Assembly (NCBI RefSeq): GCF_014621775.1
Contig: NZ_CP061204.1
Location: forward strand, 248,001 to 312,000
Direction of reading: 5' to 3'
Origin: Stenotrophomonas sp. 169
Lineage (GTDB): Bacteria > Pseudomonadota > Gammaproteobacteria > Xanthomonadales > Xanthomonadaceae
Length of the DNA stretch: 64,000 bases
Within the stretch, counting starts at the first letter, position 1, and each line of letters starts with the position of its first letter. Positions 8,554 through 18,002 of the stretch are shown piece after piece. The position numbers and the translations under genes are program-made. The notes below the pieces were generated by a model that worked only from the letters and a program-made list of their open reading frames with translations, ran no database searches and was not told where the DNA came from.

Positions 8554-9519
8554 TCAGCGCTCGGAATGCCCACTCTGGTCGTACTCGCGCGGTGAGAACA
8601 GCTCCGGCTGGATCATCTCCACGAACGCGCGCGCCTGCGCCGACAATGCCTTGCCACGCCGCACGATGACGCCATAACTGCGCTCGGGGAACCACTCGCG
8701 CATCGAACGCGCCACCAGCTTGTGGGGGTCGGCATCATTCAGGCACAGCGACGGGACGATGGAAATGCCCATCCCCATCGCCACGTACTGCTTGATCACT
8801 TCCCAGCCGCCGACTTCCAGCGCCACGGTATAAGGCAGGCGGTGGCGCTGGAACACCTGGTCCACCAGCCGGTAGGTGATCTGGCGCTTCGGTGGCAGTA
8901 CCAGCGGGTGTTGGGAGATCGCCTCCAGGCTCAGCTTGCCGCGCGCCAGCGGGTGGTCGTGCGGGGTGATCAGCATCTGCTCGAAGCGGTAGGCGGGGGC
9001 GTAGGTCAGGTCGGCCGGCACGTCGGTCATCGAGCCCACGGCCAGATCCACGGCATCGTCGCGCAGCAGGTCGGTGCCGTCGGCGCTGATGGCGTTGTGC
9101 AGGGTCAGGCGCACGTCCGGGTGCAGCTGGCGGAAGCGTTCGATGATGCGCGGCAGCAGGTACAGGATGGTGGAGCTGTTGGCCGCGATGTTCAGCTCGC
9201 CGGCGTCCATGCCGCTGACCTTGTCGCGGAACCGCGCCTCCAGTCCGTCCAGGTCTTCCACCAGCGGCTGGGCCATCTCGAACAGCAACTGGCCTTCGCG
9301 GCTGGGAACCAGACGCCGCCCACTGCGCTCGAACAGCACCACGCCCAGCTCGCGCTCCAGCGCCTGCAACTGCTGGCTGATCGCCGGCTGGCTGACGAAA
9401 AGCGCCTCCGCGGCGCGTGACACCGACCCGAGTCGCACCGTCTGGCAGAACGCCCGCAGCGGTTTCAACCGGTCGGATTTGTAGGAAAAACGAGGACTTG
9501 GCGGTGGTCGCGTGGACAT
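8554..9519 (-). CDS. LysR family regulator divergent from aceBA (CysB-like branch)
   Basis: The 321-residue protein has a LysR helix-turn-helix (KPLRAFCQTVRLGSVSRAAEA, then SQPAISQQLQALERELG) and an effector-binding domain ending near residue 300. It faces away from aceB-aceA across 109 bases that contain an ATAAG-N5-CTTAT dyad with T-N11-A spacing. It is thus the likely regulator of the glyoxylate shunt (inference from position). I chose the ATG at 9519; the frame extends to 9555. A TATACT box lies nine bases before this ATG, implying a very short leader. A sulfur or oxidative-stress role is also possible. Confidence 0.85.
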   Translation of the reverse strand: MSTRPPPSPRFSYKSDRLKPLRAFCQTVRLGSVSRAAEALFVSQPAISQQLQALERELGVVLFERSGRRLVPSREGQLLFEMAQPLVEDLDGLEARFRDKVSGMDAGELNIAANSSTILYLLPRIIERFRQLHPDVRLTLHNAISADGTDLLRDDAVDLAVGSMTDVPADLTYAPAYRFEQMLITPHDHPLARGKLSLEAISQHPLVLPPKRQITYRLVDQVFQRHRLPYTVALEVGGWEVIKQYVAMGMGISIVPSLCLNDADPHKLVARSMREWFPERSYGVIVRRGKALSAQARAFVEMIQPELFSPREYDQSGHSER

Positions 9520-9531
9520 CGTGTCATGAGT

Positions 9532-9546
9532 ATAAGCGCAACTTAT
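9532..9546. promoter_or_regulatory. LysR-type operator in the aceB intergenic region
   Basis: ATAAG at 9532-9536 and CTTAT at 9542-9546 form a perfect inverted repeat around five bases. It contains the T-N11-A arrangement typical of LysR binding sites. It overlaps the region upstream of the candidate aceB -35 and the -10 of the regulator. Confidence 0.5.
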
Positions 9547-9554
9547 CCAACGCA

Positions 9555-9582
9555 TTGCAATATCTGCTTTGTCAAATACATT
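9555..9582 (+). promoter_or_regulatory. Candidate aceB promoter
   Basis: TTGCAA (9555-9560), 16 bases, then TACATT (9577-9582). It lies just downstream of the LysR-type dyad, compatible with activation by the divergent regulator. Confidence 0.35.
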
Positions 9583-9628
9583 GCCGGCACGTCACGGTAG
9601 GGGCGTCCCTCGATCCAGGAGTGTCCCG

Positions 9629-11266
9629 ATGCCTGCCGTTGCTACTGCTCTTCCATCGCCGCCCGCCAAGCCGACGCCCGGGATCTCGCTGACCACCCAG
9701 GTGGCCGGCCAGGCCGCCCTGCTGCCTGCCCCGCTGCTGGCGCTGCTGGTGTCGTTGCACCGCGCCGTCGAGCCGGGTCGCCAGGCCCGCTTGGCCGCCC
9801 GCGTGCAGCGTCAGGCGTTCTTCGACCAAGGCGGTCTGCCGGACTTCCGCGCCGATACCGCGCCGATCCGTGCGGAGGATTGGAAGGTGGCACCGCTGCC
9901 GACGGCGCTGCTGGACCGCCGCGTGGAGATCACCGGGCCGACCGACCCGAAGATGGTCATCAACGCGCTGAACTCCGGGGCCAAGGTGTTCATGGCCGAC
10001 TTCGAGGACGCCACGGCACCGACCTGGCGCAACCTGCTGGCTGGCCAGCAGTCGCTGATCGGCGCGGTGCGCGGCGACCTGCAGTTCACCGCCCCGGCGA
10101 GCGGCAGCAAGCCGGCCAAGCACTACACGCTGCGTCCTTATGAAGAGCGCGCGGTGCTGATCGTGCGCCCGCGCGGCTGGCACCTGGACGAAAAACACGT
10201 GCTCGTGGATGGCCAGCGGCTGGCCGGTGGGCTGTTCGATGCGGCGGTGTTCGCCTACCACAACGCCCGCACGCTGATGGCCAACGACCGCGGCCCGTAC
10301 TTTTACCTGCCCAAGCTGCAGAGCATGGAAGAAGCCGCGCTGTGGGAAACCGCGCTCTCGCACATCGAAGGCATGCTGGGCCTGCCGCAGGGGCAGATCA
10401 AGGTCACCGTGCTGATCGAAACGCTGCCGGCGGTGTTCGAAATGGACGAGATCCTGCACGCCCTGCGCGAGCGCATCGTCGGCCTGAACTGCGGCCGCTG
10501 GGATTACATTTTCTCGTACCTGAAGACGTTCCGCCGGCATGCCGACAAGGTGCTGCCGGATCGTGGCCAGGTGACCATGACCCAGCCGTTCCTGAAGGCC
10601 TATTCGGAGTTGCTGATCCAGACCTGCCACCGGCGCGGTGCACATGCGATGGGCGGCATGGCTGCGCAGATCCCGATCGGCAACGATGCGGCCGCCAACG
10701 AACAGGCGATGGCCCGCGTGCGGGCAGACAAGCTGCGCGAGGTCACGGCCGGCCACGACGGCACCTGGGTGGCGCACCCGGCGTTGATCCCGGTGGCGAT
10801 GGCCATCTTCGATGACCACATGCCCGGCGCGAACCAGCAGCAGGTGCTGCGCCAGGACGTGCGCGTGGACCGCGACCAGTTGATCGCGCGTCCGCCGGGC
10901 ACCATCACGCGTGCCGGCTTCGATGGCAACGTGGAAGTGTGCGTGCGCTACCTGGCGGCCTGGCTGGATGGGAACGGCTGCGTGCCGATCCACAACCTGA
11001 TGGAAGACGCCGCCACCGCCGAGATCAGCCGCAGCCAGCTGTGGCAGTGGCTGCACACGCCCGGGCAGCAACTGGACGACGGCACGGCCATCGACCCGCC
11101 GCTGCTGGACAGCGCGTTGGCGCAGCTGCCGGCCCGCCTGGGTGACCGCGCGGCACTGCCCGGTGGCGGCCGCGTGGACGAAGCCATCGCGCTGCTGTCC
11201 GAGCTGAGCCGCGCCGATGAACTCAACGATTTCCTGACCCTGCCGGCCTACGCACGCATCGACTGA
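9629..11266 (+). CDS. aceB: Malate synthase A
   Basis: The 545-residue protein is a malate synthase of the A type (about 530-550 residues). It carries the block GAKVFMADFEDATAPTW, an arginine-rich RPRGWHLDEKHV region, KVTVLIETLPAVFEMDEIL, and the catalytic-loop region near NHMGLNCGRWD-type sequence (here GLNCGRWDY). It condenses glyoxylate with acetyl-CoA to malate in the glyoxylate shunt. The ATG at 9629 has AGGAG seven bases upstream; the frame extends further upstream without an RBS. aceA follows 57 bases later on the same strand, so the two form the shunt operon, next to a divergent LysR gene. Confidence 0.96.
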   Translation: MPAVATALPSPPAKPTPGISLTTQVAGQAALLPAPLLALLVSLHRAVEPGRQARLAARVQRQAFFDQGGLPDFRADTAPIRAEDWKVAPLPTALLDRRVEITGPTDPKMVINALNSGAKVFMADFEDATAPTWRNLLAGQQSLIGAVRGDLQFTAPASGSKPAKHYTLRPYEERAVLIVRPRGWHLDEKHVLVDGQRLAGGLFDAAVFAYHNARTLMANDRGPYFYLPKLQSMEEAALWETALSHIEGMLGLPQGQIKVTVLIETLPAVFEMDEILHALRERIVGLNCGRWDYIFSYLKTFRRHADKVLPDRGQVTMTQPFLKAYSELLIQTCHRRGAHAMGGMAAQIPIGNDAAANEQAMARVRADKLREVTAGHDGTWVAHPALIPVAMAIFDDHMPGANQQQVLRQDVRVDRDQLIARPPGTITRAGFDGNVEVCVRYLAAWLDGNGCVPIHNLMEDAATAEISRSQLWQWLHTPGQQLDDGTAIDPPLLDSALAQLPARLGDRAALPGGGRVDEAIALLSELSRADELNDFLTLPAYARID

Positions 11267-11323
11267 TGCCTGCGCCCGCCCGCTTTTTCTTCCTGCTGTA
11301 GCACCGACGAACTGGAGATAGAC

Positions 11324-12616
11324 ATGAGCACGCTGCCCACTGCCGAACAGATCCAGCACGACTGGGACACCCACCCCCGCTGGCAGGGGATTGAACGCAA
11401 CTACACCGCCGCCGACGTGGTGCGCCTGCGCGGCACCGTCCACGTGGAGCATTCGCTGGCGCGGTTGGGGGCGGAGAAGCTGTGGACGTACCTGCAGGAA
11501 AAAGAGTTCGTCAACGCGCTGGGTGCGCTGACGGGTAACCAGGCGATGCAGCAGGTGAAGGCCGGTTTGAACGCCATCTACCTGTCCGGCTGGCAGGTCG
11601 CCGCCGACGCCAACCTCGCTGGCCAGATGTACCCGGACCAGTCGCTGTACCCGGCCGATTCGGTGCCGGCGGTGGTCAAGCGAATCAACAACACGCTGCT
11701 GCGCGCCGACCAGCTGCACCATGCAGAAGGCAAGGATGACATCGACTTCCTGCAGCCCATCGTAGCGGACGCCGAGGCCGGCTTCGGCGGCGTCCTCAAC
11801 GCCTTCGAGCTGATGAAAGCAATGATCGAAGCCGGTGCTGCCGGGGTGCATTTCGAAGACCAGCTGGCCTCGGTGAAGAAGTGCGGCCACATGGGCGGCA
11901 AGGTGCTGGTGCCGACCCGGGAAGCCATTGAAAAACTGAACGCGGCTCGGCTGGCGGCCGATGTGCTGGGCGTGCCGACCCTGCTGGTGGCCCGCACCGA
12001 TGCCGAGGCAGCCGACCTGCTGACCAGCGACATCGACCCCAATGACCAGCCCTTCGCCACCGGCGAGCGCACCACCGAAGGCTTCTACAAGACCCGCAAC
12101 GGCCTGGATCAGGCCATCAGCCGCGGCTTGGCCTACGCGCCCTATGCCGACCTGGTGTGGTGCGAGACCGGCAAGCCGGACCTGGAGTTCGCCCGCCAGT
12201 TCGCCGAAGCCATCCATGCCAGGTTCCCGGGCAAGCTGCTGGCCTACAACTGCTCACCCAGTTTCAACTGGAAGAAGAACCTGGACGACGCCACCATCGC
12301 GAAGTTCCAGACCGAGATTGCCAAGTACGGGTACAAGTTCCAGTTCATCACCCTGGCCGGCTTCCACGCGCTCAACTACTCGATGTTCAACCTGGCCCAC
12401 GGCTACGCCCGCCGCCAGATGAGCGCCTTCGTGGAGCTGCAGGAGGCCGAGTTCGCCGCCGCCGACCGTGGCTTCACAGCGGTCAAGCACCAGCGCGAGG
12501 TGGGCACTGGCTATTTCGATGCGGTCACCCAAGCGATCCAGCAGGGCCAGTCCTCGACCACCGCGCTGACCGGATCCACCGAAGAAGAACAGTTCAGCGC
12601 CGGCCGCGCCGCCTGA
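11324..12616 (+). CDS. aceA: Isocitrate lyase
   Basis: The 430-residue enzyme cleaves isocitrate to glyoxylate and succinate, the first step of the glyoxylate shunt. The catalytic-cysteine motif [13 protein letters not shown] is present at about residue 190. [25 protein letters not shown] and [10 protein letters not shown] blocks are intact, and length matches bacterial enzymes. GGAGAT precedes the ATG at 11324. It lies downstream of aceB in the same operon and allows growth on acetate, fatty acids or leucine-derived acetyl-CoA, which fits the liu genes nearby. A large hairpin follows. Confidence 0.97.
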
Positions 12617-12642
12617 CGATCAGGATAGTGACGGCTGCTGGC

Positions 12643-12690
12643 CGTCAGCCCTGCCCGGCATGCCCCGGGCAGGGCCGCTGACGCCTTCTT
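12643..12690 (+). terminator. Hairpin terminator after aceA
   Basis: A long GC-rich inverted repeat (GTCAGCCCTGCCCGG against CCGGGCAGGGCCGCTGAC, one bulge) ends about 65 bases past aceA and is followed by a TTCTTTC tract. Confidence 0.65.
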
Positions 12691-12803
12691 TCAACTAGCT
12701 GAAATCATTGGGCCCGGCCCTCTAAACTGAGACGCAGCGCACGGTTGAAAGCGGTGCTATGCTCCGCTCCTCAGAATGGGCAGTCTGATCACTGGGGCAG
12801 GGA

Positions 12804-13847
12804 ATGAGCGGCAGGGGTGCGGTCGCAGACGCGTGTGCACGGACAGGCATTGCCACCACGGCGATGGCTGAGATCGTGCACGCCGTCCTGAGTCCCGAAG
12901 AGTTCGCCCTGTTTGCCAGCTTCGCCAACCAGCGCAGCCTGCGTGATGGCGATTGCCTGTTCCGCCGAGGTCATCGTGGCAGCAGCATGTTCGTCATCGC
13001 AGAAGGCGCCATCGAGCTCGACTTCGGCGAAGACCTGGTGATGAAGCGGCTGGGCCCGAACGAGTTCTTCGGGGAGCTGGGCCTGCTGATCGGCGATCAC
13101 CTGCGCAGTGCTGATGCGCGCGCGACCTGCGATACCGAAGTCCTTGAACTCGGTCATGTCGACTTTCATCGGCTGGTGGAAAGCGAGCCGGGGCTGGTAG
13201 CTTATTTCCTGCGCCGTACCATCATGCGCGTGGTGGGCAACGAGCAGGCACTGATCAGCCAGCTGCGCCGCCGCAACCATGACCTCGAAACAGCGCTGGA
13301 CAACCTGTACGTCACCACCCACCAGCTCAGCCACACCCGCGAGCTGGTGCGTACCGACGAGCTGACCGGCCTGCACAACCGGCGTGGACTGGCGCTGTAC
13401 CTGCAGGAATGCCGCGGACACGAAGAGGGACCCGCGCAGGGACTGCTGCTGATCGACTGCGACCACTTCAAGCAGATCAACGACCAGTTCGGCCATCAGG
13501 CGGGCGACCGCGTGCTGCAGAGCGTGGCCAACATCCTGCGCTCGATGGCCGGTGCCGACGATCTGGCCTGCCGCCTGGGCGGTGATGAGTTCTGCCTGCT
13601 GCTGCGCCGGGCCAATGCGCAGATCGTGCAGCACGCCGCCGAGTTCGTGCTCAGCGCGGTGCACGGCCTGCTGGAACGCAGCCATGGTACGCCGCATGTG
13701 TGCCATCTCAGCATCGGCGCCAGCCTGGTCGATGCCACCGCCGACTGGAGTGAGTGGTATGCCAATGCCGATCGCGCGTTGTACCAGGCCAAGCGCGATG
13801 GTGGTGATCGGCTGCGATGGGTGCATGATGTGACGGACAGCGACTAG
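12804..13847 (+). CDS. cNMP-binding diguanylate cyclase (cyclic-nucleotide domain + GGDEF)
   Basis: The 347-residue protein has an N-terminal Crp-type cyclic-nucleotide-binding domain (about residues 28-140, with phosphate-cassette-like FFGELGLL...RSADARA). A helical linker follows (about 145-180), then a GGDEF domain with intact GGDEF at about 259-263. The RXXD inhibitory site expected upstream of it reads GADD, so product inhibition is probably absent. It should make c-di-GMP in response to cAMP or cGMP. The architecture and the adjacent nucleotidyl cyclase, seven bases downstream, match the XC_0249/XC_0250 (GuaX) cGMP to c-di-GMP pair of Xanthomonas campestris (from memory). A GGGGCAGGG stretch precedes the ATG at 12804; M21 is an alternative start. 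Confidence 0.88.
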   Translation: MSGRGAVADACARTGIATTAMAEIVHAVLSPEEFALFASFANQRSLRDGDCLFRRGHRGSSMFVIAEGAIELDFGEDLVMKRLGPNEFFGELGLLIGDHLRSADARATCDTEVLELGHVDFHRLVESEPGLVAYFLRRTIMRVVGNEQALISQLRRRNHDLETALDNLYVTTHQLSHTRELVRTDELTGLHNRRGLALYLQECRGHEEGPAQGLLLIDCDHFKQINDQFGHQAGDRVLQSVANILRSMAGADDLACRLGGDEFCLLLRRANAQIVQHAAEFVLSAVHGLLERSHGTPHVCHLSIGASLVDATADWSEWYANADRALYQAKRDGGDRLRWVHDVTDSD

Positions 13848-13854
13848 GGCGGAA

Positions 13855-16350
13855 ATGACCATGCGCGGCGACAAGGAACCGTCCCCCCACGTCCCGCAAC
13901 TGCGGGCGTTGTTGTTCACCGATCTGGTGGACTCCACATCGCTGGTGGAGCGCATTGGCGACACTGCCGCTGCAGAGTTGTTCCAGCAGCACGATCGCCT
14001 GGTGCTGGCCATGCAGCAGCGCTGGCGCGGCCAGCAGATCGATCGCTCCGATGGCCTGTTCCTGCTGTTCGAACGCCCGGTGGATGCGCTGGGATTCGCG
14101 CTGGACTACCAGCAGGGGCTGCGCCAGCTCGGCCAGGCCAACCACGTGCCGCTGTTCGCGCGGGCCGGCCTGCACGTGGGCGAGGTGATCCTGTGGGACA
14201 ACAGCGCCGAGGCCATCGCCTTGGGTTCCAAGCCGGTGGAAGTGGAAGGCCTGGCCAAGCCGATGGCCGCACGCCTGATGCAGCTGGCGCGGCCGGGGCA
14301 GGTGCTGCTGTCGGCCACCGCCGAGTCGATGGTGCGGCGCGCGACCGATCGCTTGGGTGACGTCGGCAAGGGGCTGAAGTGGAAGTCGTACGGCCGGTGG
14401 CGTTTCAAGGGCGTGGCGCAGCCCATGGATGTCCATGGCGTGGCGACGCCCGAGTTGCCGTCGGTGGGCCGACCGCGGCCGACGCCGAAGGCCATGCGCG
14501 ATATCCCGTTCTGGCGCCGGCCGATGGCGATGGCGGCGGAGGCCACGTTTGCGATGGTGCTGCTGGTGGGAGGATGGTTCCTGCTGCGCCCACAACCCGC
14601 GATTGCGTTTGTCGAGCGCGACTGGGTGGTGTTGGGCGATGTAAACAACCGGACCACCACCGCGCTGCTGGGTGATGGCCTTCAGCAGGCGCTCTACATG
14701 AGCCTGGGCCAGTCGCGTTTCGTCAACGTCCTGAGCGAGCTCAAAGTCCGCGAAACACTGCAGCTCATGCAGAAGCCTGTGCGCCAGCCTCTCGACAGGG
14801 ATCTTGCCGTGCAGGTGGCGATCCGCGAGGGGGCGCGGGCCGTACTTCTCCCCAGCGTCTTCGAAGTAAACAACAAGGTGCGTATCAGCGTCGAGGTGCT
14901 TGATCCGCGGACGGGAAAGACGGTGTACACACGGTTCGCAGATGGCCATGGCCTGGAGTCAGTGCTCGCCTCGACAGACAAGGTCGTCGCATCGTTGCGC
15001 GATGATCTGGGCGAAGCCATGCGCGATGTGTCGACCGATCACAAGCCGCTACCGACCGTGGCGACCGCTGATCTCGATGCGCTGCACGCCTATGCCAAGG
15101 GAGTGGAGGCGCTTGCAGAGGCACGTTACAGCGATGCGGTGATGTTCTTCGAGCAAGCGACCCGTCTGGATCCTGAGTTCGCGTTTGCGTACGTAGGCCA
15201 GATGCGCATCAAGTATGCGATGGGAAATCTTGCAGAAGCCGCCGCACTTTACGAGACGGTCAGAACCAGGCGCGCTCGGCTGACTGCACGAGATCAGCTG
15301 TATCTGGATGCGTGGGCGTTGGAGTTCACGGGTGAGCAGGCAGCAAAGACAGCCGAAAAGTGGCGGCTCCTTACTGAGCTCTATCCGGACGACAGTGCCG
15401 GCTGGATGAATTACTCGAAAGCACTGTTTGCCTACGGTTCCTACGATCTCGCACTGGACGCGGCAACGCCGCTGCTGGGTCGACAGCAGCCGTATCGTGC
15501 CCAGGTTCTTGTCTGGATTGCACGCGTGCACCTTGCCAATGGCAATACGGCCGCAGCGAGAAGTCTACTCAACGAGGCGGCGCGGCAGCCGGGATGGCGG
15601 GGTGATGGACTGGAGGCCGCGCTTCTTGCTCTTGAAGGGAATTTTGACTCTGCGAACAGCCGATTCAGTGCCATGACGTCTCCTTCGCTGGGCACGCGTC
15701 TGGAGCATGCTGCGGTTCTTGGCCTTCAGGGAAAGCCTGGAAGCGCCGCAGCGATGGCGGAAGAGGCCGTTACTCAGTGCCGGACCGTTGCAGAGATGTG
15801 CAGCGTAAGTCGGGCGCAGGCCGCCGCTTGGGAAGATCAGCAGGGGCACCCCACCGCTGCAGTCCAGTACCGGAAACTGCTCGACGCAGCAGTGGCGGAA
15901 GCGGATGTTCCCCGGACCGCGTCAAGCCGGCACCTTACGTTGGTAGCACTTGGCATTGCCTATCAGGCCGTGCGTGCTGGGCACGGTTCTGCCATTCCCA
16001 AGCAGCTGGCAAGACTTCAGGTGCTGGCGGGACAGCAGGACGACGATCCGCGTGTGCATGAGCTCAGTGCGATGCTGGGCGCACGGATGGCGCTGGACGA
16101 GGGCGACCTGGAAAGAGCGACGGCCCAGATGTCCCTGGTTCCAGCGGGGACGCTGTACCAGTGGCGAGTACTGGCGCACGACGTTGCGGCGGCGAGGGGT
16201 AATGAGCCCGAGTCTGCCAATCAGGCGAGGTGGTTGCAAGGTCATCGCGGACTCGCATTCGCGGAGGATGCGGGCGGCTATGTGCTGCTGGCGCTCAATA
16301 TTGGCGACATGCGCAGGCTGGCTGCCAAGGCAGTCCAGCCCGCGACGTGA
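13855..16350 (+). CDS. Class III nucleotidyl cyclase with TM helix and TPR region (peptide-modification-system cyclase type)
   Basis: The 831-residue protein has a cytoplasmic class III cyclase domain (about residues 15-200), one transmembrane helix (about 224-244), and a long C-terminal region with TPR-like helical repeats (about 400-820), probably periplasmic. Metal-binding aspartates are seen as FTDLVDS (D23) and RSDG (D66), and AARL keeps the catalytic arginine (R140). The asparagine before it (usual pattern VNLAARL) reads KPMAARL, and the usual lysine is not evident, so activity or specificity may be unusual. It shares an operon with the cNMP-binding diguanylate cyclase. Next to it are an NHLP-like peptide gene and a SagB-like gene. 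I recall NCBIfam naming such proteins putative peptide modification system cyclase. The second half (from about 14640) is visibly less GC-rich than the first. Confidence 0.82.
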   Translation: MTMRGDKEPSPHVPQLRALLFTDLVDSTSLVERIGDTAAAELFQQHDRLVLAMQQRWRGQQIDRSDGLFLLFERPVDALGFALDYQQGLRQLGQANHVPLFARAGLHVGEVILWDNSAEAIALGSKPVEVEGLAKPMAARLMQLARPGQVLLSATAESMVRRATDRLGDVGKGLKWKSYGRWRFKGVAQPMDVHGVATPELPSVGRPRPTPKAMRDIPFWRRPMAMAAEATFAMVLLVGGWFLLRPQPAIAFVERDWVVLGDVNNRTTTALLGDGLQQALYMSLGQSRFVNVLSELKVRETLQLMQKPVRQPLDRDLAVQVAIREGARAVLLPSVFEVNNKVRISVEVLDPRTGKTVYTRFADGHGLESVLASTDKVVASLRDDLGEAMRDVSTDHKPLPTVATADLDALHAYAKGVEALAEARYSDAVMFFEQATRLDPEFAFAYVGQMRIKYAMGNLAEAAALYETVRTRRARLTARDQLYLDAWALEFTGEQAAKTAEKWRLLTELYPDDSAGWMNYSKALFAYGSYDLALDAATPLLGRQQPYRAQVLVWIARVHLANGNTAAARSLLNEAARQPGWRGDGLEAALLALEGNFDSANSRFSAMTSPSLGTRLEHAAVLGLQGKPGSAAAMAEEAVTQCRTVAEMCSVSRAQAAAWEDQQGHPTAAVQYRKLLDAAVAEADVPRTASSRHLTLVALGIAYQAVRAGHGSAIPKQLARLQVLAGQQDDDPRVHELSAMLGARMALDEGDLERATAQMSLVPAGTLYQWRVLAHDVAAARGNEPESANQARWLQGHRGLAFAEDAGGYVLLALNIGDMRRLAAKAVQPAT

Positions 16351-16365
16351 AACATCGTCGGTGTT

Positions 16366-16653
16366 TCAGCCGTTCAGGCCAGGCAGCCCGCTCAGGAACA
16401 GGAAGGGCACGTTGAACGGACCTTGTACTTCAAGGCGCTCAGCCAATTGCAGCTCCGCCTGAGCGAACTCGTCCTTGGTTCCCAACGAAGGAAGTGGATC
16501 GCAGCAGAGCACACCGAACGACGCATCGGCGCCCAGCCCGACCAACGCATCGCCGGGATTGGAGGCGAACGAGCTGCGGAAGAGATCGTCGGAGGACAGC
16601 AGTTGAAGGAGCTGCTGGACAAGAGCGGGGGGTAGGGTCGGCGAAGCGGTCAT
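16366..16653 (-). CDS. NHLP-leader-like RiPP precursor peptide
   Basis: The 95-residue product starts with a helical leader resembling nitrile-hydratase/Nif11-like leader peptides: LLQLLSSDDLFRSSFASNPGDALVGLGAD, split here as SSDDLFRSSF (20-29) and NPGDALVGLGAD (32-43). A Cys-Cys pair follows at 50-51, and the tail is hydrophobic and rich in proline and glycine (GPFNVPFLFLSGLPGLNG). No signal peptide and no GG cleavage site is obvious. Its 3' end lies 15 bases from the converging cyclase gene, and it diverges from the SagB-like dehydrogenase across 161 bases. I infer a ribosomally made, modified peptide; from memory it fits the NHLP-related RiPP peptide family that co-occurs with these two neighbours. 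The modification and the mature product are unknown. Confidence 0.72.
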   Translation of the reverse strand: MTASPTLPPALVQQLLQLLSSDDLFRSSFASNPGDALVGLGADASFGVLCCDPLPSLGTKDEFAQAELQLAERLEVQGPFNVPFLFLSGLPGLNG

Positions 16654-16677
16654 GTCGGACTCTGCAGGTGGGAGAAA

Positions 16678-16705
16678 CCTATATAGCGGCCAAGCCTGCT
16701 GACAA
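16678..16705 (-). promoter_or_regulatory. Promoter of the RiPP-like precursor gene
   Basis: On the minus strand TTGTCA (16700-16705) is followed after 16 bases by TATAGG (16678-16683), which overlaps TATATA. This is the best sigma-70-like match around the cassette and would give a leader of about 20 bases. Confidence 0.45.
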
Positions 16706-16814
16706 TTGATGGATGACTCCTGCAGATTCTCCCGATCGATTTCGTCTGCGGCGTGACCACGTCTGTCACCGGCTCGGCTACCCTATCCGCGTCAATCGCC
16801 ATCGAGCTTTTTGA

Positions 16815-18002
16815 ATGCGCTTTCGTCGCTGCGCGGCACTGGTTGTCGAGACCGTTGAGTCACACGTGTTCGATCTTGCGGGGGTTCTTGCTGGCACAAC
16901 GGGTGTAACCGCGGAGCAGTCGTTGCAGGTGCGGGCTGCCCACTTGGACGACCCATGCGTGGTTGATCGTGATGACTGTGCGCTCCTGCTGATGCTGAGC
17001 CCGACGATCTGGCAATCCGTTCCAGAAGAGGAATCGTCTCGACGTCAGGTGTTGGGTCTGCTCGATCGCGGGCTGTTGGTAAGCGATGATCCGGCTCATG
17101 CAGATCATCACGCCTCCGATGGACGCGTGCGCAGTGCACACTGGTGGCCACTTTCAGCGATCCATTACCGGCATTCGCGCTGGAGCGCAACGGATAGTGT
17201 TGCGGAAATGGAGGATCGGCAGATGGTGACCGCGCAGGACCTGGTCAGGCAGCTCGGACCGCCGCCGCCTGCATGGCCACCTCGTGCGGCAGGGGCCATT
17301 TCTCTGCCGCTTCGGCCTGCAGCGCCGCCTGACATCCTGCTTCAGGAACGCGCTACCTGCCGGAATTACGACGCTGCCCGCAGTCTGCCCCTGCAGACCG
17401 TATCTGACGTGCTCCAGCAGGTCCTGATGGCACAGGCCACCGTGGAGACAGAACCCGGCGTCCACTTCCTGAAGAAAAACGTGCCTTCCGCGGGGAGCAT
17501 GCACCCGCTCGAGGCATTCATCGTCGCGCGGGGCATAGAAGGGCTGGAGGATGGCCTGTACCACTATCACGCGATGGCGCATGAGCTGGCGAGGCTTCCC
17601 GAGCAGCCTGCCGATCTGGCCGCCTTTTCGACCAAGCTTCTCTCAGGACAGCACTGGTTTGCCAACGCGCATGTGCAGGTTGTGCTTGTCTGCCGCTTCC
17701 AGCGAAATTTCTGGAAATACCGTAACCACGCAAAGGCCTACAGGGCCGTGATCCTCGACGCCGGGCATATATCCCAAGCGTTCTACACGGCAGCGACACG
17801 GCAGGGTCTGGGGGCTTTCGTCACGGCGGCGATCAATGAGGCTGAGATCGAAACCCTGCTGGGGCTGGATCCCATGGCGGATGGCGCGCTGGCGGTCTGC
17901 GGCTTTGGTTGGCGCTCGGGTGAACAGGCCACCGCAGAACTGGATCCTGCTGGACACGTGTGGACGAACGGATCGCTGAGCATCAAGCAGACAGGCGGCT
18001 GA
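16815..18002 (+). CDS. SagB-like FMN dehydrogenase (peptide maturation)
   Basis: The 395-residue protein has an N-terminal region of about 170 residues (winged-helix-like, RQVLGLLDRGLLVSDD) and a C-terminal nitroreductase-fold domain (about 175-385). Flavin and fold motifs are ERATCRNYD (178-186), SAGSMHPLEAFIV (225-237) and LDAGHISQAFYTAATRQGLGAF. SagB-family enzymes oxidise azolines to azoles in thiazole/oxazole-modified peptides. No SagC/SagD (YcaO) partner is seen here, so the reaction may differ. It diverges from the precursor gene. From memory this matches the putative peptide maturation dehydrogenase family. The ATG at 16815 has a weak RBS; a later start is possible. Confidence 0.8.
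   Translation: MRFRRCAALVVETVESHVFDLAGVLAGTTGVTAEQSLQVRAAHLDDPCVVDRDDCALLLMLSPTIWQSVPEEESSRRQVLGLLDRGLLVSDDPAHADHHASDGRVRSAHWWPLSAIHYRHSRWSATDSVAEMEDRQMVTAQDLVRQLGPPPPAWPPRAAGAISLPLRPAAPPDILLQERATCRNYDAARSLPLQTVSDVLQQVLMAQATVETEPGVHFLKKNVPSAGSMHPLEAFIVARGIEGLEDGLYHYHAMAHELARLPEQPADLAAFSTKLLSGQHWFANAHVQVVLVCRFQRNFWKYRNHAKAYRAVILDAGHISQAFYTAATRQGLGAFVTAAINEAEIETLLGLDPMADGALAVCGFGWRSGEQATAELDPAGHVWTNGSLSIKQTGG

Follow-up and report, generated by a model that had tools for sequence, protein, structure and literature searches.

In Xanthomonas campestris, the protein XC_0250 (886 aa), which combines a cyclase domain with tetratricopeptide repeats (TPRs), synthesises cyclic GMP (cGMP), and the binding of cGMP to XC_0249, a protein with a cyclic nucleotide-binding (cNMP) domain and a GGDEF domain, raises the synthesis of cyclic di-GMP (c-di-GMP), while the loss of either protein results in less biofilm and virulence, as described by An et al. 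(2013, PMC3770947) in the sections of the article used here. These sections name no input signal for the pathway, and the whole text contains no word starting with "peptide" or "dehydrogenase" and none of the tags XC_0248, XC_0251 and XC_0252. Another record concerns peptides: the sections of PMC2887384 used here describe the NHLP precursor family as having a nitrile-hydratase-related leader, a terminal Gly-Gly cleavage motif, a core rich in heterocyclizable residues and a linked ABC transporter, and NCBIfam holds an orphan trio of a peptide, a cyclase and a dehydrogenase (TIGR04509, TIGR04510 and TIGR04511) of the kind expected for ribosomally synthesised and post-translationally modified peptides (RiPPs). 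Here we describe a locus of Stenotrophomonas sp. 169 in which the orphan trio and the X. campestris cGMP pathway, two separate records, turn out to be one. It lies in a stretch of 64,000 nt (assembly GCF_014621775.1, contig NZ_CP061204.1, positions 248,001-312,000 of the forward strand), hereafter the window (Table 1). No paper linking the trio with the XC_0249/XC_0250 pathway was found in the titles and abstract beginnings of the open-licence literature.

An earlier note on the same DNA had placed a cyclase, a peptide and a dehydrogenase between positions 13,855 and 18,002 and had pointed to the NCBIfam trio. The genes are indeed located there, and in the profile search all three adjoining proteins exceeded the cut-offs, with 63.9 bits for the peptide against TIGR04509 (cut-off 34), 941.8 bits for the cyclase against TIGR04510 (cut-off 400) and 499.3 bits for the dehydrogenase against TIGR04511 (cut-off 240), the latter also matching the SagB family TIGR03605 (117 bits, cut-off 78.4). 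The reading as a peptide modification system given in the note was right as to the trio and incomplete otherwise, since the cyclase is a guanylate cyclase orthologue and a fourth gene that the note missed, coding for a cNMP-binding diguanylate cyclase, belongs to the unit upstream. The note also missed an allelic island that takes in the peptide, most of the sensor half of the cyclase and the dehydrogenase in part or in full. The pattern of variation points to a signal and a receptor and not to an isolated product cluster. The conserved output part, the hypervariable receptor-signal-enzyme block and the matching of tail and receptor resemble pherotype systems, so we lean slightly towards the view that the locus is a peptide-signalling unit in which the modified peptide tail serves as the signal for the guanylyl cyclase. 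The fuller version, namely a receptor guanylyl cyclase gated by a modified ribosomal peptide, with pheromone types specific to strains deciding who raises cGMP and then c-di-GMP throughout the Xanthomonadaceae, seems to us evenly balanced between true and false.

On alignment, the window cyclase and diguanylate cyclase are orthologues of XC_0250 and XC_0249, making up a predicted cGMP-to-c-di-GMP pathway. Conservation was counted among homologues above a length limit, the window included (116 cyclases, 118 dehydrogenases and 113 diguanylate cyclases). The X. campestris orthologue P0308, which NCBI labels "putative peptide modification system cyclase", is 886 aa long with D41, D71, L73, A150, L157 and A161 at the published positions and shares 50% identity with the window cyclase over 574 residues; the same six residues are present in two further Xanthomonas cyclases of four-gene loci and in a broken X. 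phaseoli cyclase frame. Their window counterparts D36, D66, L68, A145, L152 and A156 are the same letter in 114, 116, 94, 116, 95 and 110 of the 116 homologues, respectively. D23 and D66 occur in all 116, and R140 in at least 95% of them. When aligned with Ma1120 and LipJ, the window cyclase has its canonical FTD Asp at D23 (D28 in XC_0250, 116/116) and retains the AAR Arg as R140, a placement that differs from the residue assignment in the sections of PMC3770947 used here. All five cGMP contacts given there for XC_0249 (F73, E90, H98, N145 and E146) are kept in the window diguanylate cyclase as F74, E91, H99, N146 and E147, conserved in 112, 113, 113, 100 and 113 of the 113 homologues, and its GGDEF motif (G259, G260, D261, E262, F263) is intact. 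The cyclase thus does not belong to the modifying enzymes, since guanylate cyclase activity has been demonstrated for its counterpart in X. campestris. As far as we have seen, cGMP synthesis and a cGMP-stimulated diguanylate cyclase have been published for X. campestris only, and both are predicted for Stenotrophomonas sp. 169. Hydropathy gave exactly one transmembrane segment in 110 of the 116 cyclases, so the TPR half should be outside, provided that the catalytic part is inside.

The co-conservation of the trio expected in the earlier note was borne out in 297 genomes of the Xanthomonadaceae: the peptide was found in 185, the cyclase above its cut-off in 184, and the dehydrogenase in 189 (182 above its cut-off), and comparison of the lists by eye gave a dehydrogenase match in 185 of 185 peptide-positive genomes and a strong cyclase match (E < 1e-80) in 184, with the exception of genome G175. 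A class-level draw of 369 genomes contained only five peptide carriers: the window genome, three others of the same family and one from another family of the same order. The layout was examined in 80 regions taken from family genomes, two of which (L117 and L140) were fetched as pieces without the cyclase, leaving 78 loci. In 74 of them the diguanylate cyclase gene lies upstream of the cyclase and shares its strand, in 76 the peptide gene is convergent with the cyclase, and in 75 the dehydrogenase is on the cyclase strand. All 43 named loci found via the dehydrogenase carry the peptide, 42 have the cyclase and 39 the diguanylate cyclase, three of the four loci without the latter being cut by contig ends. 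The usual unit therefore consists of four genes.

Some loci depart from this layout. L135, L136 and L151 (genomes G022, G067 and G040) have no diguanylate cyclase and carry many peptide genes (up to 10 matches, two of them weak), and two of the three have more than one dehydrogenase. In Xanthomonas phaseoli pv. phaseoli ATCC 49119 (L217) the cassette is apparently broken, with a cyclase frame of 365 aa and 217 dehydrogenase residues matched. Dehydrogenases 46-48% identical to that of the window were also found in Streptomyces, Kitasatospora and Kribbella (P0099, P0100, P0108, P0109, P0116 and P0119); the plasmid records queried with the Streptomyces protein P0100 gave 21 records, every one below 60% identity.

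Comparison of related loci delimits the allelic island. L096, the nearest relative of the window by diguanylate cyclase, is 88% identical to it in the diguanylate cyclase and the catalytic part, but identity falls to 41% for the sensor, 42% for the dehydrogenase and 40-43% for the peptide, while S. maltophilia IAM 12423 (L210) shows 76% identity in the diguanylate cyclase, yet 57% in the sensor, 64% in the dehydrogenase and 52-55% in the peptide. At the DNA level, L096 is 86.7% identical to the window over positions 8554-15210, with no further BLASTN match over 150 bases up to 24000. In several pairs of loci (L098/L099, L109/L110, L128/L196, L094/L201, L095/L201 and L129/L196) the flanks share 86-95% DNA identity up to approximately cyclase codon 290-450, beyond the membrane span, after which the remaining sensor codons, the peptide gene and the dehydrogenase gene, over its 5' part or its whole length, give no match or one short match at 67-68%, and identity of 87-95% resumes to the right of the island. 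In the control pairs L101/L202 and L129/L130 the match is contiguous throughout; the right-hand side of L110/L111 is less clear-cut, with pieces at 66-82%, and between L096 and the window the right-hand match is absent. Within species, named after 90% protein clusters, the catalytic part and the sensor are 100 and 38% identical between X. campestris alleles, 99 and 41% in X. euroxanthea, and 99 and 37% in X. arboricola, and more than one sensor type occurs in 14 of the 17 diguanylate-cyclase clusters having at least two loci. Members of the S. maltophilia group have diverged in the catalytic part too (0.64-0.77, with the diguanylate cyclase at 0.91-0.98), and the left edge of the island therefore varies.

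Of the 91 loci that have a single peptide gene and the complete set of four genes, 83 entered the pairwise statistics; duplicates were removed by sequence ends, and a few very close pairs, e.g. L202/L203, remain. In 38 pairs with the catalytic part and the diguanylate cyclase both more than 90% identical (the diverged pairs of the S. maltophilia group fall outside this set and outside a set of 46 pairs), sensor identity correlates with that of the dehydrogenase at 0.88, the leader at 0.92 and the tail at 0.93, but not with that of the catalytic part (0.04). Tail and sensor correlate at 0.83 given the dehydrogenase, compared to -0.23 for tail and dehydrogenase given the sensor. Since these pairs share loci, each cluster was also represented by a single pair, that with the lowest sensor identity (n = 13), giving partial correlations of 0.79 and -0.39. 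Tail types were then mapped on trees by parsimony, using three types defined by our own text patterns in 56 loci; the 27 loci with unassigned tails were excluded and enter the four-label counts only. Residues 401-831 of the cyclase require 2-3 changes of tail type, residues 250-400 require 10, the dehydrogenase 4-6, the diguanylate cyclase 13 and the catalytic part 15, with about 22 after shuffling. With automatic (unsupervised) tail clusters the order is unchanged, at 5-10 changes for the sensor versus 7-13 for the dehydrogenase. Among close relatives, the tail thus tracks the sensor rather than the enzyme, a covariation that linkage could explain in part.

The peptide shows the Cys-Cys pair (Cys50-Cys51 of 95 aa) and the hydrophobic Pro/Gly tail described in the earlier note, the tail being FNVPFLFLSGLPGLNG. 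It has no Pfam match. When 18 diverse members were scanned (E <= 0.01), 16 matched the Os1348 NHLP-clan model, two TIGR03793 and one the nitrile hydratase alpha family TIGR01323; of the label "NHLP/Nif11-like" given to the leader, the first half is thus upheld and the second is unsupported, because no Nif11 family appeared in these scans. In an alignment of 134 unique peptides, from which those below 60 bits were excluded, the conserved features are the leader and an (L)ASKEEI..AR motif, and the last ~20 residues are variable, with recurring kinds of tail such as ..VIFCFEAGK, ..TTPQLDAG and ..MQPIQLN. A structure model of the window peptide contains helices at residues 9-21, 23-31, 33-39, 44-48 and 60-76, with residues 78-92 disordered (predicted local distance difference test, pLDDT, < 50). 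The Cys pair was considered as a modified site and rejected: it lies outside the variable tail, ahead of the final helix modelled for the leader, and a Cys near residues 49-54 of the window peptide is present in 119 of the 134 peptides and missing in 15.

A number of points weigh against a signal and its receptor, some of them from the covariation itself. Over all 83 loci the partial correlation of the tail is 0.23 with the sensor versus 0.29 with the dehydrogenase, and values so weak and so alike speak against any strong form of the reading. The lead of the sensor over the dehydrogenase is small with automatic tail clusters, and, as the peptide, sensor and dehydrogenase adjoin, co-inheritance alone could yield much of the covariation. 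It may be that the island is selected otherwise, e.g. as a sensor of an environmental or host cue, and simply carries the peptide and dehydrogenase along, the peptide not being a ligand of the cyclase. We consider this unlikely. The adjacency of the genes, the similar global correlations and a gradual rise in divergence along the cyclase in the 3' direction all agree with it, whereas tail type follows cyclase residues 401-550 (2 changes) more closely than it follows dehydrogenase residues 1-130 (5 changes), though the latter are nearer to the peptide gene, and between L160 and L185 the sensor (0.57) and tail (0.32) have changed while the dehydrogenase (0.91) and leader (0.84) have stayed, with the diguanylate cyclase at 0.95 and the catalytic part at 0.99.

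The other adverse points concern output, gene content and export. According to the sections of PMC3770947 used here, the XC_0250 catalytic domain by itself restored biofilm, so the sensor is dispensable for output. The diguanylate cyclase is missing next to the trio in four loci, and L171 (genome G054) keeps both cyclases, the peptide and dehydrogenase not being found in that genome, possibly a receptor-only state. Confidence of the peptide model is low (mean pLDDT 61.5). Gly-Gly stands at the leader-tail junction in just 6 of the 134 peptides and not in that of the window, no leader protease is evident, and the two C39 peptidase domains found by a whole-genome search lie far off, outside the window. 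No exporter was seen among the recurring neighbours nameable by Pfam in 120 loci, half of the ten families scanned being without a match. The missing site and exporter, along with the helices predicted between residues 9 and 76, would also suit a small regulatory protein that acts on the cyclase or dehydrogenase and always stays in the cytoplasm. Such a role is nevertheless quite unlikely, as the part of the cyclase that covaries with the tail lies on the C-terminal side of the single transmembrane segment and would thus face outwards with the catalytic part inside, and the tail is core-like in being variable and disordered in the model.

In the window, the unit has malate synthase and isocitrate lyase genes as neighbours to one side and biotin-dependent carboxylase genes to the other. 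Seventeen frame families recur in at least 12 of the 120 loci, of which four are the cassette genes, two are located at malate synthase, and one short family (14 loci) overlaps the place of the peptide gene. Of the ten others, which were scanned, five are of metabolic, housekeeping or nuclease/phosphatase type, and five have no Pfam match and are probably antisense frames in high-GC DNA. The nameable neighbours are either of the types that flank the unit in the window or spermidine synthase, arginine decarboxylase, and magnesium-chelatase-like and endonuclease/phosphatase proteins. A dedicated exporter or extra enzyme was rejected on account of this composition. The cassette might also encode an antimicrobial RiPP diversified by toxin-immunity competition and merely regulated by the cyclase, since allelic replacement is likewise typical of toxin-immunity loci; this is improbable given that only the four cassette genes recur in more than 84 of the 120 loci, next to nameable neighbours of metabolic or housekeeping types, and that the peptide is so widespread in the family.

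The C-terminal half of the dehydrogenase is a SagB-type nitroreductase with Lys301-Tyr302 present in 117 of 118 homologues, and the sequence profile of its first ~160 residues matched no solved structure at E <= 0.001. That no YcaO is nearby, as noted before, was confirmed by a whole-genome search, the single YcaO of the genome (59.8 bits, below the NCBIfam cut-off for thiazole/oxazole, TOMM, pathways on the matched part) lying outside the window. It is a lone gene on contig 1 (1064434-1065399; L173, L221), with a gene for a SpoU-type RNA methyltransferase on one side and one for a sodium:alanine symporter on the other. A search of 99 genomes gave YcaO in 7, the window genome included. All seven carry the peptide and none of the 37 peptide-negative genomes has YcaO, which, like the SagB-type Lys-Tyr enzyme and the distant YcaO of the window genome, would be expected if a TOMM pathway were supplied with YcaO from elsewhere in the genome. 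However, 55 of the 62 peptide-positive genomes have none, so the enzyme is not generally an azoline oxidase fed by YcaO, and the tails are hardly richer in C/S/T than the leaders (0.16 versus 0.14), with one such residue among 19 in the window and Cys in 41 of 134 tails, hence not a fixed feature. These two facts make a TOMM pathway highly improbable and led us to reject azole chemistry, unlikely in general, as the general reaction. Our guess, by analogy with albonoursin oxidase, an enzyme of the nitroreductase family, is that the dehydrogenase may desaturate the tail.

A Pycsar-like anti-phage cyclase-effector pair is scarcely credible and an anti-phage role was rejected, since PADLOC gave only weak matches of the diguanylate cyclase cNMP domain to Pycsar proteins and none for the cyclase at E <= 0.01, and the effector has an intact GGDEF motif and an orthologue that regulates biofilm in X. 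campestris.

Table 1 Features of the four-gene locus, in window coordinates
Feature	Position	Strand	Basis
cNMP-binding and GGDEF diguanylate cyclase, XC_0249 orthologue, fourth gene	12804..13847	+	Pfam cNMP_binding, GGDEF
Single-pass membrane guanylyl cyclase with C-terminal TPR half, XC_0250 orthologue, 831 aa	13855..16350	+	TIGR04510
Catalytic part of cyclase, residues ~12-200	13888..14454	+	Aligns with class III cyclases Ma1120, LipJ
Cyclase transmembrane segment, residues 226-244	14530..14586	+	Hydropathy peak
Cyclase sensor half with TPRs, residues 250-831, putatively periplasmic	14602..16347	+	TPR matches
Edge of DNA similarity to L096 (genome G145), ~cyclase codon 452	15210	.	BLASTN
NHLP-type precursor peptide, 95 aa	16366..16653	-	TIGR04509
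Helical leader part, peptide residues 1-76	16426..16653	-	Conserved columns; low-confidence model
Proposed core, peptide residues 77-95, QGPFNVPFLFLSGLPGLNG	16369..16425	-	Family-wide variability; pLDDT < 50 at 78-92
Putative divergent promoter region, peptide/dehydrogenase (from layout alone)	16654..16814	.	Sequence
SagB-type flavin dehydrogenase, 395 aa	16815..18002	+	TIGR04511, TIGR03605, Pfam nitroreductase
Nitroreductase catalytic half, dehydrogenase residues 171-378	17325..17948	+	Profile match to CyaGox, BmdC, McbC
K301-Y302 of dehydrogenase	17715-17720	+	In 117/118 homologues

The four-gene conservation, the intact sites, the allelic island and the tail-sensor covariation were computed here; modification, export, binding and the direction of the effect in the proposed signalling unit are inferred. 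The long helical leader would present the variable ~20-residue tail to the SagB-type dehydrogenase, which would oxidise it, most likely by a two-electron dehydrogenation of the core rather than by azole formation. The processed tail would then leave the cytoplasm and bind the periplasmic TPR half of the adjoining guanylyl cyclase, altering its cGMP output, and cGMP bound by the neighbouring cNMP-GGDEF protein would raise c-di-GMP, with effects on biofilm and related behaviour. As matched allelic versions of tail and TPR half are swapped as one cassette, only cells of the same type would answer, which would make them pherotypes. If this is true, the peptide is the missing ligand of the XC_0250 pathway, which would also gain a form of kin recognition, and what cGMP signalling senses in these bacteria becomes testable; a ribosomal peptide signal would be read by a cyclase and not a kinase, the locus would mark social types among Xanthomonas, Lysobacter and Stenotrophomonas, and a YcaO-independent reaction of SagB-type dehydrogenases would be defined.

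Compared with the NHLP precursors as described in the sections of PMC2887384 used here, the window family has the nitrile-hydratase-related leader in common and differs in having no general Gly-Gly motif at the leader end, a core that is not rich in heterocyclizable residues (at the tail C/S/T content given above) and no transporter among its nameable recurring neighbours. With the XC_0249/XC_0250 pathway it shares the orthologous pair and the key residues named in the sections of PMC3770947 used here, and it has the adjoining peptide and dehydrogenase that the text of that article omits. All three matches above cut-off and the arrangement are shared with the NCBIfam trio, whose family names imply a modification system; the window locus adds the guanylate cyclase link and the fourth gene. 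The azoline dehydrogenases SagB, McbC and CyaGox have the same nitroreductase fold and Lys-Tyr motif, but the enzyme type of the window occurs without a YcaO partner in most peptide-positive genomes, and its N-terminal part is unmatched among solved structures. Likewise, a SagB-type dehydrogenase with Lys-Tyr is present as in TOMM pathways, while the clustered YcaO cyclodehydratase of the latter is absent.

Two further systems are similar in logic. Animal receptor guanylyl cyclases, e.g. the natriuretic peptide receptor, combine an outside peptide, a single span and an inside guanylyl cyclase, and the logic proposed here is alike by analogy only, the sensor being made of TPRs and homology not being claimed. 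The agr and comQXPA pherotypes combine a conserved output with a hypervariable contiguous region that extends over the receptor, the precursor of the signal and some of the modifying enzyme. Their receptor is a histidine kinase, whereas here it would be a guanylyl cyclase, and the window locus has a precursor with an NHLP leader, a SagB-type enzyme and a putative secreted signal. The likeness consists in the conserved output part, in the contiguous hypervariable island that differs among close relatives, and in the matching of signal variant and receptor variant, which here is a covariation with linkage as a possible contributor.

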